Below are positions 9,734-32,621 of a DNA stretch of 37,542 bases, piece by piece. This DNA comes from Arthrobacter agilis (lineage in GTDB: Bacteria > Actinomycetota > Actinomycetes > Actinomycetales > Micrococcaceae). The DNA is taken from contig NZ_CP024915.1 in the NCBI RefSeq assembly GCF_002953615.1, positions 1,769,139 to 1,806,680 of the forward strand, read 5' to 3'. A program made the position numbers and the translations under genes. The notes beneath the pieces were generated by a model, which saw only the letters and a program-made list of their open reading frames with translations, searched no databases and was not told the DNA's origin. The first letter of the stretch is position 1, and every line of letters begins with the position of its first letter.

Positions 9734-10747
9734 CTAGGCCGAATCACGCCAGACGACGGTGGTCTCCAGGACCTGTACCGGACTCGGCAGCCCCCTGATC
9801 TGGGCCAGGACGAGCTCTGCGGCGGTGCTGCCGAGCAGGTCCGCGGGCTGCCTGACCGTGGACAGCTGCGGGCGGGTACGCAGCGCCCAGCTGCTGTCGT
9901 CGAAGCCCACGATCCCGACGTCGTCGGGCACTTTCCGTCCCGATTCCTGCAGGGCTGTCATGGCCCCCGCGGCGACGGCGTCGGACGCCGCGAAGACGCC
10001 GTCGATCTCGGGGCAGCGACGCAGCAGCTCCTGCATCCCCTCGAGGCCCGCCGCGTAGGTGTAGAGCGGGTACTCGACCACGAGCGAGGCGTCGAAGCGC
10101 CCGCCCAGGGCGTTCCGGAAACCGGTGAACCGGTCATGTCCCGAGTCCCGGTCCATCGCGCTGGCGATCATGCCGATCCGCTTGCGGCCCGTCTCCACGA
10201 GCCGCCGCGTGATCGCCTGGGCCGCCGCCGCGTTGTCGATGGCGACGTACGGGAGGTCGGGCGTGCCGGGGGGATGCCCCACGAAGGCCGCCGGCACACC
10301 GATATCCCGCACCGCCGACGCGATGGGGTCCGACGCCCGGGCGGAGACGATCACCGCACCGTCCACCAGCCCGCCCCGGAGATAGTCGGCGACCCTGCGG
10401 CTGTCCCGGTCCGAGTCGATGATGAGCGAGACGAGCTGGTAGTCGGCCTTCGAGAGCACGGCGTTGGCGCCGAGGAGGATGGAGCCGATGTTCGGGTCCT
10501 CGAACAGGAGCGAGTGCGGCTCGTGGATGATCAGGGCGATCGCTCGGGATTCCTGGGTCACGAGGTTCCTCGCGGCCGAATTGCGCACGTATCCCACCTG
10601 GGCGATGGCTTCCTCGACGGCTGTCCGCGCCTCGTCCGACACGTAGCGTTCGCCGTTGACGACCCGGGAGACGGTGCCCCGGGAGAGCCCCGCGGCGCTC
10701 GCGACGTCGTTGATCGTCGCCCGGCGGTTACGGGTGCGAGGGGGCAT
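9734..10747 (-). CDS. LacI/GalR-family transcriptional regulator
   Basis: 337-residue sugar-responsive repressor. The N-terminal helix-turn-helix is TINDVASAAGLSRGTVSRVV (residues 11-30) with the hinge YVRNSAARNL, followed by a periplasmic-binding-protein-like ligand domain with GVFAASDAVAAGAM and GIVGFDDSSWA typical of the family. The ATG at 10747 is six bases from the -10 hexamer TACAGT on the minus strand, so it is probably leaderless. DUF503 follows after 32 bp. No sugar gene is adjacent. The nearest candidate targets are the two LacI-type operators at 16815 and 16861 in front of the beta-galactosidase operon, but this pairing is inference. Confidence 0.92.
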   Translation of the reverse strand: MPPRTRNRRATINDVASAAGLSRGTVSRVVNGERYVSDEARTAVEEAIAQVGYVRNSAARNLVTQESRAIALIIHEPHSLLFEDPNIGSILLGANAVLSKADYQLVSLIIDSDRDSRRVADYLRGGLVDGAVIVSARASDPIASAVRDIGVPAAFVGHPPGTPDLPYVAIDNAAAAQAITRRLVETGRKRIGMIASAMDRDSGHDRFTGFRNALGGRFDASLVVEYPLYTYAAGLEGMQELLRRCPEIDGVFAASDAVAAGAMTALQESGRKVPDDVGIVGFDDSSWALRTRPQLSTVRQPADLLGSTAAELVLAQIRGLPSPVQVLETTVVWRDSA

Positions 10748-26587: not shown

Positions 26588-26641
26588 CGGGCACCGACAC
26601 CGGCCACGGCGCCTCCACCGCGACCGGAAGCACCGGCCCAC

Positions 26642-27028
26642 ATGTCCGGCTGGACGGCAGCCGTCGCGATCCTCCTCATCCGTGGGGTCGTCTCCTTCCT
26701 CGCCGGTTTCGGTCGAGCCCTAGGCGCCCTGGTCATGCTGTCGGTGTTCTACGTATTCCCCCTGGACGACGGCGCGGCAGCGGGTACCGCGGACGCCGCG
26801 AAGACCGATGCCTGCAGGGAGGAGTGGCTGGGCAGGCGAGCTGCGCGGCGTCGGGAAAGTGCACCCGACGATCCGGACGCATGGTTGCCCGCTTTCGGAT
26901 CCCCCAGCGGACGAGGGGCACCGGATGCTGTTCCCGGCGGGTTCTCGAGAAGGCGATCAGCCCGACGGGAAGAGCGTGGGGATGCCGATGGCGCTGACCA
27001 GAAACAGCGTGTCGACCAGCCACGATGA
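26642..27028 (+). CDS. Uncertain small membrane protein, possibly decayed
   Basis: Unrecognised 128-codon frame in the 369-bp space between the YbdK-type gene and the next supported gene (26588-26956). Its first 45 residues form a plausible membrane segment (LSVFYVFPLDD after two hydrophobic stretches). From about residue 65 it turns Arg-, Asp- and Gly-rich with lower GC at third positions, and its last 72 bases overlap the better supported minus-strand membrane gene. No ribosome site is visible. It may be a real short protein that has lost its frame, or chance. Nothing else is seen in this space. Confidence 0.3.
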   Translation: MSGWTAAVAILLIRGVVSFLAGFGRALGALVMLSVFYVFPLDDGAAAGTADAAKTDACREEWLGRRAARRRESAPDDPDAWLPAFGSPSGRGAPDAVPGGFSRRRSARREERGDADGADQKQRVDQPR

Positions 27029-27247
27029 CCGTCCGGCGTCTACCACGGCGATTCCTCGTCCGAACGCTCCCGTGAGGAGCACGCTCACCAGGCCGACGAG
27101 ACCGACTGACACAGCAGTGATCCGGGCGGCCTCGGGACGGTGGCGTCCACGGCTCCATGCGCGACCGAACAGGATCACGATGCCTGTGGAGGCGATGAAG
27201 CCCAGGAGCAGGAGGACGGACACCATCAAGGGGGAAGGATCCTCCAT
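26957..27247 (-). CDS. Small three-helix membrane protein, hypothetical
   Basis: 96-residue protein starting MEDPSPL with three predicted membrane helices: LMVSVLLLLGFIASTGIVILF, then ITAVSVGLVGLVSVLLTGAF, then a C-terminal WLVDTLFLVSAIGIPTLF. A basic loop (RAWSRGRHRPEAAR) lies between the first two. No family is recognised. A longer version from GTG 27283 is possible, and neither start has a clear ribosome site. It diverges from the RidA-like gene. Base composition is less GC-biased than the flanking genes. Confidence 0.5.
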   Translation of the reverse strand: MEDPSPLMVSVLLLLGFIASTGIVILFGRAWSRGRHRPEAARITAVSVGLVGLVSVLLTGAFGRGIAVVDAGRSSWLVDTLFLVSAIGIPTLFPSG

Positions 27248-27301
27248 GGTGGGTGAATGATGGGAAGCTTGCTTGGTCGGCACGAGGGAAAGCAGGATCT
27301 G

Positions 27302-27709
27302 ATGGCTTCAGCAGTGACGTTGATCCGATCCACCGCGCTGACGGACGCAGCCCAGTATGCCTACGCCGCCACCGCGCCGGCCGATGCGCGACTGATCTTC
27401 CTCGCGGGGTCCTGTCCCCTCGATGAAACCGGGGCAACAGTGGGAAAAGGCGATTACGCAGCACAGGCGGAACAGTGCGTTCGAAACATGACGACGGCTC
27501 TCCACGCAGCTGGAGCGGTTATCGAAGACGTCATCAGCACCCGCGTGCTCGTGGCATCGACCGATCGGGGTGATCTCGTCGACGCCTGGGAGGTTGTACG
27601 CCGAGCGTTCGGTGCCCATGACGTACCGAGCACCCTGTTGGGCGTGACGGTTCTTGGATATGAGGACCAACTCGTGGAGATCGAAGCCGTGGCCGCTGTC
27701 CGCACCTGA
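27302..27709 (+). CDS. RidA/YjgF-family protein lacking the catalytic Arg
   Basis: 135-residue trimeric-fold protein of the Rid (YjgF/YER057c/UK114) superfamily. Archetypal RidA hydrolyses reactive enamine/imine intermediates released by PLP enzymes. Family segments are LIFLAGSCPLDETG, AEQCVRNMTTALHAAG, VISTRVLVAS and the closing QLVEIEAVAAV, with the conserved Glu near 126-128. The essential Arg of RidA (in a PARS-type motif) is replaced: the aligned position reads VPSTLLGV with Thr111. This points to one of the non-RidA subfamilies, which are often not deaminases. ATG 27302 has AGGA upstream and matches family length; ATG 27257 would add 15 residues. It is convergent with the class V PLP enzyme. 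Confidence 0.82.
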   Translation: MASAVTLIRSTALTDAAQYAYAATAPADARLIFLAGSCPLDETGATVGKGDYAAQAEQCVRNMTTALHAAGAVIEDVISTRVLVASTDRGDLVDAWEVVRRAFGAHDVPSTLLGVTVLGYEDQLVEIEAVAAVRT

Positions 27710-27740
27710 GGATCCGCGTCAGCGTTCGGCGAAGGATCCT
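27709..27740. terminator. Weak hairpin between convergent genes
   Basis: AGGATCC (27709-27715) and GGATCCT (27734-27740) pair over 7 bp, right at the stop of the RidA-like gene and before the convergent PLP-enzyme gene. No T-tract; a terminator role is only suggested by position. Confidence 0.3.
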
Positions 27741-27828
27741 GCTACGGCACAGCCGAACCGGTGGCATCCTGCTCGTCGTCGTCGCCGGCATCGGCCCATC
27801 CCGTGCGACGTGAAGACCTACACCCGCG

Positions 27829-29037
27829 TCATGAGGCGACGAACTCGCCGAGCGCGGTCAGGAGGCGATCGACGTCGTCGTCGTTGTTGTAGGGAGCCAA
27901 GCCGACCCGCAGGGCGGCGCTGTCCTCGAGGTCAAGGCGACGGAAGGCTTCGTAGGCGTAGAAGGACCCCGCCGGCGCGAGGATGTTGCGATCCGCGAGG
28001 AATCGGTAGGCGTCCGCGGAGGACCGGCCCGGGAACGTCACCAGCAGTGTCGGTGTCCGATCTTTGGCTTTCGAGTGCAGCACGACGGCGTCACCCAGTT
28101 CCGCCAGCCCTGCCTCGATGCGGGAGCGCAACGCGAGCTCGTGCTCGTCGACCAGATGAGCGGATGCAAGAAGGCGCGCACGGCGGCCGGTCCCGGTTCC
28201 CGGAGCGATCGCTGCCAGGAAGTCCACGGCCGCCGTGGTTCCGGCCATGATCTCGTACGGGAGGGTGCCGAACTCGAACCGCTCCGGAACCGCGTTCGTG
28301 GACGGCAGCAGCTTGTCCGGTTGCAGCGACTCCAGCAGCTCCGGGTCGGCCACGAGAACACCGCAGTGGGGTCCGAGGAATTTGTAGGGCGAGCAGGCGA
28401 AGAAGTCAGCTCCCAGCGCCTTCACGTCGACCGCCGCATGAGCGGTGTAGTGCACGCCGTCCACGTAGACCAGAGCGCCGACCCCGTGCGCGGCATCGGC
28501 GATGCGCCGCACCGGCGGTTTCGTGCCGAGCAGGTTCGAGGCGGCGGTGATCGCCACCAGCTTCGTGCGCTCGGTGATCGCGGTCGCGACGGACGCTTGG
28601 TCAATCTCCGTGGTGTCCGGCTCGAAATCGATCCAGCGTACGATGGCGCCGACCGCGTCGGCTGCCTGCACCCAGGGGCGGATATTGGAGTCATGGTCCA
28701 GCCGTGACACCACGACCTCGTCGCCCGGCTGCCACGTCTTGGCGAGGTGGCGGGAGAAGTCGTAGGTGAGCTGCGTTGCGCTCCGCCCGTAGACGACCCC
28801 GCCGGGATGCGCCCCGAGCAGGTCGGCCATCGCCGCCCGGAATCCGCTGACCGCCGATTCGGCGTTCCTCTCCGAGCCCATGCCGAGGCCGCGGTTGGAC
28901 AGCGGCCCGGTGATGGCGTCGGCTATCGCGGCTCCTACGACGGCGGGGGCCTGCGTCCCGCCGGGGCCGTCGAAGTACGCGGTACCGGTGCGTAGGGCGG
29001 GGAAGTGCGCGCGGAAGGCCGCGATGTCCAGGGTCAT
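27829..29037 (-). CDS. Class V aminotransferase / cysteine desulfurase-like protein
   Basis: 402-residue PLP enzyme of the group labelled cysteine desulfurase-like (TIGR01976). The cofactor lysine is Lys219 in CSPYKFLGPHCG, and the PLP-phosphate and ring-stacking elements include the DHDSNIRPW segment and YVDGVHYTAH. True SufS/IscS enzymes carry a persulfide Cys on a late active-site loop; here that region reads LAPAGSFYAYEAF without Cys, and the only cysteines noted are Cys215 and Cys225 next to the Lys. It may be a lyase, a transaminase or an epimerase rather than a desulfurase. Its ATG overlaps the stop of the upstream small membrane gene (ATGA). It is convergent with the RidA-like gene. 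Confidence 0.85.
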   Translation of the reverse strand: MTLDIAAFRAHFPALRTGTAYFDGPGGTQAPAVVGAAIADAITGPLSNRGLGMGSERNAESAVSGFRAAMADLLGAHPGGVVYGRSATQLTYDFSRHLAKTWQPGDEVVVSRLDHDSNIRPWVQAADAVGAIVRWIDFEPDTTEIDQASVATAITERTKLVAITAASNLLGTKPPVRRIADAAHGVGALVYVDGVHYTAHAAVDVKALGADFFACSPYKFLGPHCGVLVADPELLESLQPDKLLPSTNAVPERFEFGTLPYEIMAGTTAAVDFLAAIAPGTGTGRRARLLASAHLVDEHELALRSRIEAGLAELGDAVVLHSKAKDRTPTLLVTFPGRSSADAYRFLADRNILAPAGSFYAYEAFRRLDLEDSAALRVGLAPYNNDDDVDRLLTALGEFVAS

Positions 29038-29276
29038 GCCGCTACTTTCTCAAGCGGGGGCCGAAACGGGAAACATTGCGGGCGAGAGTCGCTCGACGTC
29101 AGCTCTTCCGCAGAGGGAGAGCTCCCGCTGGCGTCGGAGTGATACGACCGCAGTCCGTGCTTCACTCCGAGCCGGATGATCCAGTACAGGACCAGCCCGA
29201 AGATCACCGGCACGATGACCCAGACGACGAGAACGATCAGGAACGAGAATCCATCCAGACGCACAGCTACCCCCAT
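29034..29276 (-). CDS. Small single-helix membrane protein, hypothetical
   Basis: 80-residue protein with one long hydrophobic segment (FLIVLVVWVIVPVIFGLVLY) followed by IIRLGVKHGLRSYH, a pattern I have seen in short actinobacterial membrane proteins of unknown role. A polar Ser/Glu-rich tail follows. The stop overlaps the start of the PLP enzyme by four bases, so translation of the two is probably coupled. A GTG at 29264 after a G-rich stretch is an alternative start. A -10-like TACGCT lies about 20 bases upstream of the ATG. Confidence 0.6.
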   Translation of the reverse strand: MGVAVRLDGFSFLIVLVVWVIVPVIFGLVLYWIIRLGVKHGLRSYHSDASGSSPSAEELTSSDSRPQCFPFRPPLEKVAA

Positions 29277-29398
29277 CGGTGAACGATCAGATGCTCGAGC
29301 GTAGCGCGCGGGTCCGAGACTTCGGCCACCGCCGGCCGAGCGAGATCAGCTGGAGCGGAGGGTAGCCGCGCGTTGTTGCCGGCGAAGGCGGTCCCGCG

Positions 29399-29917
29399 TC
29401 AGTCGACCACACCGCACAGGGCGAGTCCCAGGAGGTCTGGATCTGCGGCGTCGTGGACGCCCGCCTCGAAGGTGACAGTCTGTTCGGAGGGATCGGAGAA
29501 GACGATCCTGCCCACGTCGCGCATGATGATGCCGGCGCCAGGATCAGTGGCCAGGTATCTGTGTCCCACCACCGTGACGGTGTATTCGTTGGTGCCGGGT
29601 ACGCGGGTGTAGGTCTGGACGAAGTGTGCCCCCACTTCGACCGACGTCATGGTGTCCAGGTTCGTGAGGACATCGCGTGGTGCCGACACCTGCATCCTGA
29701 ATCGGGTCACGTTGCCTTGCTCGTCGAGCCAGAACAGAGACTTCGTGCTCGAGGTTCCGCTGATTCGGACGTCGAAGTCATCGCCGCAGCTGAACTGGAA
29801 GTCGTAGCTGTCGACCGTCACCGGATCGCGTTCGGGTCCGGCTGCGACAACCGAAGAGGCACCCGTCAAGGACAGGCCGAGCACGGCGACGGGCACGAGG
29901 AGGCGGGGATTCTTCAT
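29399..29917 (-). CDS. Secreted hypothetical protein
   Basis: 172-residue protein with an N-terminal Sec signal peptide (basic KNPR start, hydrophobic VPVAVLGLSLTGA, cleavage near SVVAAG). The mature part is beta-strand rich, begins YDFQFSCGDDFDVRISG and ends DLLGLALCGVVD; its two Cys could form a disulfide closing the domain. GAAAGG precedes the ATG by about 8 bases. I do not recognise the family with confidence; similar actinobacterial secreted proteins have no assigned role. The 271-bp stretch upstream (29918-30188) shows no feature. Confidence 0.65.
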   Translation of the reverse strand: MKNPRLLVPVAVLGLSLTGASSVVAAGPERDPVTVDSYDFQFSCGDDFDVRISGTSSTKSLFWLDEQGNVTRFRMQVSAPRDVLTNLDTMTSVEVGAHFVQTYTRVPGTNEYTVTVVGHRYLATDPGAGIIMRDVGRIVFSDPSEQTVTFEAGVHDAADPDLLGLALCGVVD

Positions 29918-30188
29918 GACGGCTGCCTTTCGTGGAAGGGCGGGGCAGCGGAGTCGCCGTCACGTCGTGCCTAAAGGGTGCGCGTGAGTGAACGGGCTGT
30001 CAACGGCGGTCCGCTGTCAGCGAGCGGTCACTGGGTTGGACGCTTGAACCTCGCACGGCTGCAGTGTCCTCGTGCTCGACGCCGGCGGTGTCGGGCGCAG
30101 GAGGGAGTGGCCAGGCCGGCGAGCTGTGCGACGTTCCACCCAGACGCCTAGCTGTACGCTCACGGCTCCTCACCGACGGCGTCAGAAG

Positions 30189-30554
30189 CTAGTCCGTCGC
30201 TGCATCGTCGTCGTTTTCGGGCTGCTCCCCACCCCAGATCGCCTTCGGGTAGATGCCCTCGGCAACCAGTGAGCTGGGACGACTGTTCAACGAGTGTGGC
30301 TCCAGGACCTCACCGAGAATGAGGATGGCGGCTAGTTCACCAGGGTGGCGGAGGCCCCGGAAGCCATCGTTGTTCAGCGACTCGAGACGGAAGCGCCGGC
30401 CGAACTGATGGGGCCCCTGATCCACGACGACAGCGAGCGTCTCGTCGTCCAAAGGGTATACGGCGACGAGGTTCCACTCGTCCCGTGGGGTGGCGGAGAT
30501 GTGGTCGAAGGATGCCCTGAAGGCTGCGATCCATTCGACCATGGAGTAGTTCAT
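30189..30554 (-). CDS. Hypothetical protein, 121 residues
   Basis: Unrecognised soluble protein. The N-terminus MNYSMVEWIAAFRASFDHI looks helical and amphipathic, the middle has alternating strands (WNLVAVYPLDDETLAVVVDQG), and the C-terminus is very acidic (ENDDDAATD). GGAGG lies 4 bases before the ATG, supporting translation. No membrane segment or signal. Third-position GC is lower than in the flanking core genes. Confidence 0.55.
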   Translation of the reverse strand: MNYSMVEWIAAFRASFDHISATPRDEWNLVAVYPLDDETLAVVVDQGPHQFGRRFRLESLNNDGFRGLRHPGELAAILILGEVLEPHSLNSRPSSLVAEGIYPKAIWGGEQPENDDDAATD

Positions 30555-30664
30555 GCGGCCTCCATGGCAGCTGTTCCCGTGCGCGTCACGGCTGAGACGA
30601 CGGTGTTCTCCTGCACATGGTGACCTGCTCCGAGGGAGTAGGGGACGGCGTGGCCGGATACGGG

Positions 30665-30853
30665 TCAGGGGTTACGGCGTGAGAACGCTCGTCGCGCGTT
30701 GAAGCTGACGATGCCGACCATGAACAGTGAGAAGAACACCTTGATCACCAGGGGTGTGTTGTCGAAGTGGACCCACAGGTAAGTAAGGATGCCTATTGCG
30801 ACGATGGTGCTGATGATGAATAGCGTCTTCGCGACAGGGGGGTTCGAGGTCAT
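30665..30853 (-). CDS. Small two-helix membrane protein, hypothetical
   Basis: 62-residue protein with two predicted membrane helices (LFIISTIVAIGILTYLWV and VIKVFFSLFMVGIVSF) and a basic C-terminal tail FNARRAFSRRNP, suggesting both ends face the cytoplasm. No family recognised. A TAGACA hexamer ends six bases before the ATG, so it may also be leaderless. The 211 bp upstream to the Lrp gene show nothing else. Confidence 0.5.
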   Translation of the reverse strand: MTSNPPVAKTLFIISTIVAIGILTYLWVHFDNTPLVIKVFFSLFMVGIVSFNARRAFSRRNP

Positions 30854-31064
30854 GGCCTATGTCTACCGGGGCGGTGCTGCAACAACAAACCGGTCCTCAT
30901 GGAAAAGGCGGACCTCCGCAGGCCGCCATCCACCGAGATCTTTCAGCCGCCCGGAAGCCGGTGGACCTGCGTCCGGCTTCGTAGGTGACGGTGGGGATCC
31001 CTCTCCGTACACGGGTGAGTTGGATTCGTGAGCAGGACGGTCGAAGTGGGCGATGCCTCCCGTG

Positions 31065-31523
31065 TCAGGCAGGAGTGATGTGTCGCGAGGGAATCGGGCT
31101 CGAGTAGACCACGCTGGTCGTGATGCCACCGAGGGTAGCGAGGCGACCGGTGATGCGTTCGAGGTCGCGCATCGAGCGTGCCAGCACCTTGATGATGAAG
31201 CAATCCGCTCCGGTGACGTGGTGTGCTTCGATGATCTCGGGCATCGCGTCGACGAGGTCATGGAACGGCTTGTAGTTGCCGGTGGGGTAGGCCAGTCGCA
31301 CGAACGCTGTCACCGCGTACCCGAGAGCTTCAGGATCGACGGTGATGGAGTACCCGGTGATGACCCCGCCATCGGTGAGGCGCCGGAGACGATCGCTGGT
31401 CGCGCTCGGTGAGAGATTGATGGCCCGGGCGAGTTGCGCGACGCTCGTCCGTCCGTCCTGCTGCAGGTGGCGCACTATCGCTTCATCGGTTGCGTCGAGG
31501 TCCAACCGTGGGTTCGATGGCAT
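31065..31523 (-). CDS. Lrp/AsnC-family transcriptional regulator
   Basis: 152-residue regulator. The N-terminal winged helix-turn-helix covers DLDATDEAIVRHLQQDGRTSVAQLARAINL onwards, with the recognition region SPSATSDRLRRL and GVITGYSITVDPEALGY linker. The C-terminal RAM (amino-acid binding) domain follows, with HHVTGADCFIIKVLARSMRDLE. Such proteins form octamers that respond to an amino acid. ATG 31523 is seven bases after a minus-strand TACATT, so it is likely leaderless. It diverges from the rhodanese gene across a gap with two palindromes, so autoregulation and control of the rhodanese are likely. Confidence 0.9.
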   Translation of the reverse strand: MPSNPRLDLDATDEAIVRHLQQDGRTSVAQLARAINLSPSATSDRLRRLTDGGVITGYSITVDPEALGYAVTAFVRLAYPTGNYKPFHDLVDAMPEIIEAHHVTGADCFIIKVLARSMRDLERITGRLATLGGITTSVVYSSPIPSRHITPA

Positions 31524-31530
31524 AACGGTG

Positions 31531-31550
31531 AATGTACCGTGGTTCCACGG
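31531..31550 (-). promoter_or_regulatory. lrp-type promoter -10 and adjacent palindrome
   Basis: Minus-strand -10 TACATT (31536-31531) is directly joined to the perfect palindrome CCGTGG-TT-CCACGG (31537-31550), which fills the promoter spacer. It is a good candidate operator for autoregulation. Confidence 0.55.
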
Positions 31551-31564
31551 CCGTCGGCGCTTCT

Positions 31565-31579
31565 GCACAATCGATGTGC
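31565..31579. promoter_or_regulatory. Second inverted repeat in the lrp/rhodanese gap
   Basis: GCACA, five bases, TGTGC. It is centred 28 bp from the first palindrome on the rhodanese side of the divergent gap. It could be a second regulator site. Confidence 0.45.
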
Positions 31580-31616
31580 TGTTCCAGAAGAGCGTCGGAG
31601 GAGATTCGATAGATGC

Positions 31617-32063
31617 ATGCCTCCTTCTCTTTCCGCCGCTGACTTCTTCGCTGCGAAGCTCGCCTATGAAACCGACCCTGCGGACCTGGCTGCTGAGCGT
31701 GCATCTGGCCTCGGCCCGATCGTGATCGATACCCGCTCGGCCGCTTCCTGGAGGCAGGGCCGCATTCCGGGTGCCGCCCACATTCCGAACGCAGAGCTCG
31801 AAGCACGCATCACCGACGTCGCCCCCGCCCTGGATGCCGCCATCGTCGTCTACTGCTGGGGACCGGGCTGCAACGGCAGCACCCGCGGCGCGTTGAACCT
31901 GGCGTCGCTGGGCTATACGAATGTGCGCGAACTGATCGGCGGGTTCGAGTACTGGTCCCGCGAGGGCTTCGCCACGGTCAGTGATGAGGGGCGCGCACGC
32001 CGTTCACCGGACCCCCTGACAGCACCGTCCACACCGCGGCATGACGAGCGCGACACCGCCTGA
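31617..32063 (+). CDS. Rhodanese-domain sulfurtransferase
   Basis: 148-residue single-domain rhodanese, which moves sulfane sulfur between thiols as an enzyme persulfide. The CH2A-like strand PIVIDTRSAASWRQGRIPGAAHIPNAE and the active-site loop Cys85-NGST-Arg90 (CX4R) are intact; Cys80 is a nearby second thiol. There is no signal peptide. ATG 31617 is chosen because the domain begins just after; GGAGGAG lies 13 bases upstream, and an out-of-frame ATG at 31613 is closer to it. Divergent from the Lrp/AsnC gene. The stop TGA overlaps the possible CTG start of the next frame. Confidence 0.87.
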   Translation: MPPSLSAADFFAAKLAYETDPADLAAERASGLGPIVIDTRSAASWRQGRIPGAAHIPNAELEARITDVAPALDAAIVVYCWGPGCNGSTRGALNLASLGYTNVRELIGGFEYWSREGFATVSDEGRARRSPDPLTAPSTPRHDERDTA

Positions 32064-32245
32064 CAGTCGCAGAACTCTCCCTGGATGGCTACCGGCTTCC
32101 CTCGCACGTCGACGCCGAAGGCAACGGGAACGGTCTCGTCTGCGGCAAGCCGCTCGCCCCGGTGGACCAGGAACGAGTGTGCCCTGCTGTCACCTGCCCG
32201 GTGGACGTCATCTACAGCTTCCGGGACGACGAAACGACTCGGTAG
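32060..32245 (+). CDS. Small conserved-looking protein with apparent CTG start, or a start-less remnant
   Basis: 61-residue frame reading LTVAELSLDGYRLPSHVDAE, then GNGNGLVCGKPL, VDQERVCPAV and TCPVDVIYSFRDDETTR. The Cys pattern and the ending CPVDVIYSFRD(D/N) look like short actinobacterial proteins of unknown function that I have seen, so I judge it genuinely coding. No ATG, GTG or TTG precedes the conserved part: the frame opens after a TGA at 32042-32044. CTG at 32060 overlaps the rhodanese TGA (CTGA) as a coupled start would. Either CTG is used or the start was lost by mutation. The 112 bp after it hold nothing clear. Confidence 0.45.
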   Translation: MTVAELSLDGYRLPSHVDAEGNGNGLVCGKPLAPVDQERVCPAVTCPVDVIYSFRDDETTR

Positions 32246-32357
32246 CAGCCTGGTCTTCGGAGCCGATCCGGCTCGTGGGTTGTCGCGGTGGGCGGAACAC
32301 GGGCTTCGACCCTAGACTCGGGGAAGATGGATCAGCGCGCCCATGAGGAGTTGGACA

Positions 32358-32621
32358 GTGGCAGACAGCAGCAGATTGGATCCGGCGAAGGATTTCCCGG
32401 AGGACCTGTCGACCGTGGACAGGGACGACCTGGACATCCTGAACAGCAGGAACCACCGGTCGCGGGACCGCCAGTTCGTCGAACATCATGAGGTGGATGC
32501 CGAGACCGAGGGCCAGCACCACGAGCTCCGCGAGGAGCTGGATCGGCGTCAGGCCATCCGGGACGCTCCGGCCGAGGAGACGGCCGAGGAGACGGGCGAG
32601 AGAGCGGTCCGCGAGTCCTGA
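32358..32621 (+). CDS. Hypothetical highly charged protein, 87 residues
   Basis: Hydrophilic, probably largely helical protein rich in Asp, Glu and Arg (SRNHRSRDRQFVEHHEVDAE and HHELREELDRRQ). No membrane segment and no Cys. GTG 32358 is preferred because GAGGAG lies seven bases upstream; ATG 32343 would place the ribosome site inside the gene. No recognised family. It is convergent with the small acidic gene at 32695. Confidence 0.55.
   Translation: MADSSRLDPAKDFPEDLSTVDRDDLDILNSRNHRSRDRQFVEHHEVDAETEGQHHELREELDRRQAIRDAPAEETAEETGERAVRES

Follow-up and report, generated by a model that had tools for sequence, protein, structure and literature searches.

A 61-codon reading frame overlapping the rhodanese stop codon in Arthrobacter agilis, very probably the truncated end of a small secreted-protein gene

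Genes cut short at the border of a variable region are an ordinary kind of bacterial pseudogene. The reading frame at positions 32060-32245 of a 37,542-nucleotide stretch of Arthrobacter agilis contig NZ_CP024915.1 (hereafter the window, to which all positions refer) is like them in its partial but collinear homology to intact genes, which ends abruptly, in the loss of its 5' signals and in lying where a variable region ends. It differs from them in that its remaining codons form an open frame and have hardly decayed, and this suggests a recent truncation. The intact proteins to which it is related have loops that presumably resemble the Excalibur calcium-binding domain. One relative (G1209) shows a D-x-N-x-D-G-x-x-C loop and others comparable ones; Pfam does not list Excalibur, at E up to 10, for the four full-length relatives scanned, none of which is G1209. 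A literature search found nothing on this locus.

In our analysis, the frame is very probably an ordinary 5'-truncated remnant, probably a recent one, of a gene for a secreted, cysteine-containing protein of about 99 residues. A first-pass annotation had instead described it as a plausible conserved protein of 61 residues with three cysteines, starting at a CTG. The frame, its cysteines and its coding origin were confirmed, but its status as a CTG-started gene found no support. The features discussed are collected in Table 1.

Table 1. Position, strand and supporting evidence of the features discussed, in window coordinates
Feature	Position	Strand	Evidence
Variable region between conserved blocks, with the putative remnant as its rightmost element	26612..32258	.	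Comparison with G011 and G006
AsnC/Lrp-type regulator, divergent from the rhodanese gene and in the same module	31065..31523	-	PF13404, PF13412 and PF01037 for 31083-31523; frame ends at 31065
Gene with a rhodanese domain (148 codons), shifted in frame at its 3' end	31617..32063	+	PF00581, E 4.2e-16; seven orthologous places
TGA aligned with the usual stop of the orthologues, out of the rhodanese frame by a one-base gap	32042..32044	+	Eight-row alignment, translations
Putative junction between rhodanese-module DNA and remnant	32058..32066	.	Left homology ends at 32026-32057; right homology starts at 32066 (BLAST) or 32060 (in register)
Putative 3' remnant of a secreted-protein gene that has 99 codons when intact: codons 39-99 and TAG 32243-32245	32060..32245	+	Translation, genus matches, alignment, in-register DNA identity
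Small conserved ORF (92 amino acids) in the right-hand conserved block	32343..32621	+	Relatives in 38/38 genus genomes, own included

Relatives of the 61-codon frame

The frame is open for 61 codons from the CTG at 32060. Its nearest in-frame stop upstream is the TGA at 32042-32044, giving an open stretch of 66 codons, and the CTG is the first start-like codon past that stop. The CTG (32060-32062) overlaps the TGA that currently ends the rhodanese frame (32061-32063) as CTGA, exactly as the first-pass annotation had recorded. Its statement that the frame contains no ATG, GTG or TTG was mistaken, as GTG occurs in frame at 32162, 32177 and 32201, although these codons lie too deep inside to initiate most of the protein. 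Openness by itself carries no information about this frame: 289 of the 1107 stop-to-stop frames in the window have 66 codons or more, and ten simulated first-order Markov sequences as long as the window give 386-421 such frames (mean 408). What lifts it above chance is its homology.

The 61-residue translation retrieved no match from Pfam (E up to 1) or NCBIfam (E up to 10). Among 38 whole genomes near the window, searched with a cut-off of E up to 0.001, it matched three, own genome (G000) included; the matches in the other two, G005 and G009, both of the genus, are stop-free and show E values of 1.1e-23 and 2.1e-21 and identities of 67% and 66%, respectively. Using the full-length protein of G005 as a query against 38 genomes of the genus (E up to 0.01), we retrieved matches in seven of them: three intact copies, including a third one in G318, the own genome and three weak matches (G319, G006 and G021; E 0.001-0.009) that were left out of the count of relatives. 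The intact gene is thus present in three of the 38 genomes. Each copy encodes 99 residues, beginning with an ATG and a hydrophobic, signal-like N-terminus, followed by GCPA and then by the part held by the window, to which it is 66-67% identical, without gaps, over codons 39-99. The alignments show homology, in collinear order, between the 61 codons and the 3' part of the intact genes. The own-genome match to the full-length query reached back to residue 30, across the TGA; we took this extension as due to chance, because DNA identity there is at background level.

More distant full-length relatives with the same build were found in other genera. A search of 245 genomes of the family gave five matches, among them an accepted relative in G1209 and a rejected, unrelated frame in G1128. 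Likewise, four of 394 genomes of the class matched, of which we accepted two (G362 and G431); G583 contains a GCPAG-like stretch, but its frame continues into unrelated arginine-rich sequence. No accepted relative came from 297 genomes of the order, where seven matched, own included, and the other six, all in one other genus (g38), were unrelated open frames of 392-500 codons. Members of that genus were listed again in the class (6/394) and phylum (3/396) searches and were rejected, one of them, G091, by its similarity to its fellow members alone. The 396 genomes of the phylum yielded no accepted relative apart from the window. The sole match among contigs, of 30 residues in Polyangium, is an arginine-rich open frame with no other resemblance, and a tblastn search of plasmid and phage records with a full-length relative gave no match.

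All six accepted full-length relatives have their start 38-43 codons 5' of the place equivalent to 32060 and carry, ahead of the shared part, a signal-like segment and GCPA (starts and signal-like segments were assigned by eye). Orthologues that begin at another site, which the first-pass annotation had named, along with a frameshift here, as speaking against its reading, do exist; the frameshift does not occur within the 61 codons. An alignment of five full-length sequences, leaving out G1209, contains 24 invariant positions, 16 inside the shared part and eight outside it. The window frame retains all 16 of the former and has lost the other eight, among them G31, C32, P33 and A34. The GCPA motif, also present in G1209, is missing from the window and with it the first conserved cysteine, so that the genus copies have four cysteines and the window frame three. 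The start codon and the signal-like segment are missing as well, their place being taken by an in-frame stop at 32042 and by rhodanese-side DNA.

These relatives define a family of unnamed small secreted proteins, of 95-106 residues, from this genus and from other genera of its class, with which the window codons align gap-free (codons 39-99 of the genus members) although they lack the start codon, the signal-like segment and the GCPA motif. The family is sparse and scattered across four genera among the genomes searched, and its members (at loci L002, L003, L071, L065, L068 and L082) share the signal-like segment, GCPA and a Gly/Asn-rich loop ending in Cys. Of four full-length relatives compared with Pfam, two gave weak matches under the curated cut-offs and two gave none; NCBIfam gave no match for the two relatives scanned, and a search of solved structures produced nothing convincing (best E 0.22). 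The analysis thus brings to light a family of small secreted proteins without a name, whose scanned members miss the curated Pfam cut-offs.

The joint with the rhodanese module

Six other genomes of the genus share the DNA of the rhodanese gene, at seven loci in all (7/38 genomes matched, own included), with identities of 76-89%. At six of these loci the shared block also contains the AsnC gene, starting at 31048-31064, whereas in G327 the match begins only at 31573. The 20-kb stretches around the seven loci contain no further match to the window of more than 100 bases, so the AsnC-rhodanese module stands in other surroundings in these relatives. The remnant frame is absent behind the rhodanese gene at all seven loci.

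The DNA on both sides of the CTG was compared in register with the three intact genes. Identity is 3/15 bases at 32045-32059 and rises to 10, 10 and 11 of 15 bases at 32060-32074; elsewhere it amounts to 1-6/15 on the left of 32060 and to 5-14/15 farther right. The BLAST matches show 70.0% identity over 190 columns with G005 and 69.5% over 167 columns with G009. On the other side, the end of the rhodanese homology varies with the relative and is farthest in G327. By these comparisons, homology to the intact genes breaks at 32060 and the DNA leftward is the 3' end of the AsnC-rhodanese module. The CTG therefore sits on a recombination joint of two unrelated pieces of DNA, and it is equivalent to an internal leucine codon, Leu-39, of the intact genes.

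An alignment of the window with the seven orthologues explains the overlap of the two frames. The window alone, among the eight rows, is one base short, between 32026 and 32027, which is 15 bases before 32042 and adjoins a run of C. The TGA aligned with 32042-32044 is the stop of five of the seven orthologues; the rhodanese of G023 stops two codons before it and that of G327, with a one-base gap of its own farther upstream, stops still earlier. Owing to its gap, the window rhodanese passes the usual stop and runs to the TGA at 32061-32063. The CTGA overlap is thus accidental: it results from this shift, or from an error in the sequence at that place, and not from an evolved coupling.

In comparison with the close relative G011, conserved DNA stops at 26611 and starts again at 32259, in two flanking blocks with identities of 95.4% and 93.7% to the window; between these blocks lie partly different DNA and, from 27429 to 29390, further shared pieces. 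Compared with G006, conserved DNA stops at 26588 and resumes at 32276, and G006 contains only 74 bases in between, that is, an empty site; its own AsnC-rhodanese module lies about 1.4 Mb off on the same contig. The remnant is the last piece ahead of the right-hand conserved block, which begins at either 32259 or 32276, and the site varies between relatives. A gene of the glutamate-cysteine ligase family is the left neighbour of the variable region, which contains a RidA-type gene and a class V aminotransferase gene as well as the AsnC and rhodanese genes; three of its frames were scanned with Pfam and gave no match.

Constraint, initiation and competing explanations

Ka/Ks values of the window against G005, G009 and G318 are 0.33, 0.37 and 0.65, and those among the intact copies are 0.24-0.41, so only one of the window values is raised; none of nine Fisher comparisons between window and intact values, made on rounded counts, was significant (p 0.11-1.0). 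The frame differs from G318 in 20 residues, and if these were placed at random on the 61 positions the chance of sparing all 16 invariant ones would be 0.0005. That the frame is unbroken and keeps all 16 speaks against the remnant reading, and constraint thus shaped most of its divergence. Presumably it acted before the truncation, with decay barely begun, or else some constraint remains.

A genuine small gene, with a CTG start translationally coupled to the rhodanese stop, would account for this conservation, for the unbroken frame and for the CTG being the first start-like codon past the upstream stop and overlapping the present end of the rhodanese. This was the non-canonical initiation by coupling put forward in the first-pass annotation, and several results speak against it. 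Each of the six accepted full-length relatives has its start 38-43 codons farther upstream, ahead of a signal-like segment, and the CTG corresponds to an internal leucine. The frame follows the rhodanese gene at none of the seven loci of the relatives, where matches end at 32026-32057, and the overlapping stop itself hinges on a one-base gap seen in the window row only. Nor is there a Shine-Dalgarno signal before the CTG: in the 17 bases upstream, pairing with the anti-Shine-Dalgarno sequence reaches −2.5 kcal/mol, which is no better than background (equalled or bettered at 66% of 2000 random positions of the window, median −3.3); values of the three intact genes range from −7.6 to −8.9, and the rhodanese gene reaches −9.3. 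Translation from the CTG is therefore unsupported, and we regard a coupled gene of this kind as very unlikely. Recruitment of the stump, devoid of its export signal, as a cytosolic protein of 61 residues through CTG re-initiation at the rhodanese stop seems very unlikely too; if it were true, a new gene would have been made out of the tail of an old one, reborn from a fragment. Before the one-base deletion, the usual rhodanese stop at 32042 would have shared the frame of the remnant, so a fusion of both through a frameshift or stop read-through can be imagined; the relatives show no such arrangement at any of their seven rhodanese loci, and we give this next to no credence.

The junction, or the gap in the tail of the rhodanese gene, might also stem from errors of sequencing or assembly. 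The assembly consists of one contig (3.48 Mb), and its completeness is estimated at 89%, whereas most of the relatives listed reach 99-100%; a low completeness can reflect indel errors, and may point to residual ones here, and the gap adjoins a run of C. There is, hence, a small chance of local sequence errors in this assembly. The loss of 38 codons is, however, unlike an error of the indel type, and one-base gaps are few in comparison with G011 (four in the window and two in the relative over 8172 columns, three and two over 5192 columns). Were the gap alone erroneous, the rhodanese gene would stop at 32042-32044 and the reading of the frame at 32060 as a remnant would be unaffected. That an error lies behind the junction or the gap is, in our estimation, scarcely probable.

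On the remnant reading, the loss of a start codon, suggested in the first-pass annotation as the other way of explaining the CTG, did take place, but the loss is larger, as it comprises 38 codons, the entire 5' third, with the signal-like segment and GCPA, and rhodanese-gene DNA occupies its place. The module may have arrived there, or a deletion may have joined it to a resident gene, and either would have removed the start codon together with the signal peptide and the first conserved cysteine. What remains is probably untranslated, and its product, if made, would be neither exported nor complete in its cysteines, being one short. The overlap of the Leu-39 CTG with the rhodanese stop would follow from a one-base deletion in the rhodanese tail. 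We infer that the stump lacks both translation and function. The case also calls for caution, because a tidy overlap of stop and start, together with an open and conserved-looking frame, can stem from a recombination junction; it is the comparison of the 5' ends of relatives that tells a missed gene from a stump.

Other elements of the region gave some further observations. A DNA search of plasmids with positions 26600-32400 retrieved 19 records with 60-80% identity, in which the best place was always the RidA gene, the aminotransferase gene (annotated as cysteine desulfurase-like) or the rhodanese gene, and in none of the 19 the remnant. The one-base gap in the rhodanese gene of G327 (L059, around 10100-10230) is at a different place from that of the window, so frameshifts may be tolerated in the tail of this gene. 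Finally, the small ORF to the right of the remnant shows no Pfam match at E up to 1, and its family is represented by one to ten matches (E up to 1e-5) in every one of the 38 genomes of the genus.
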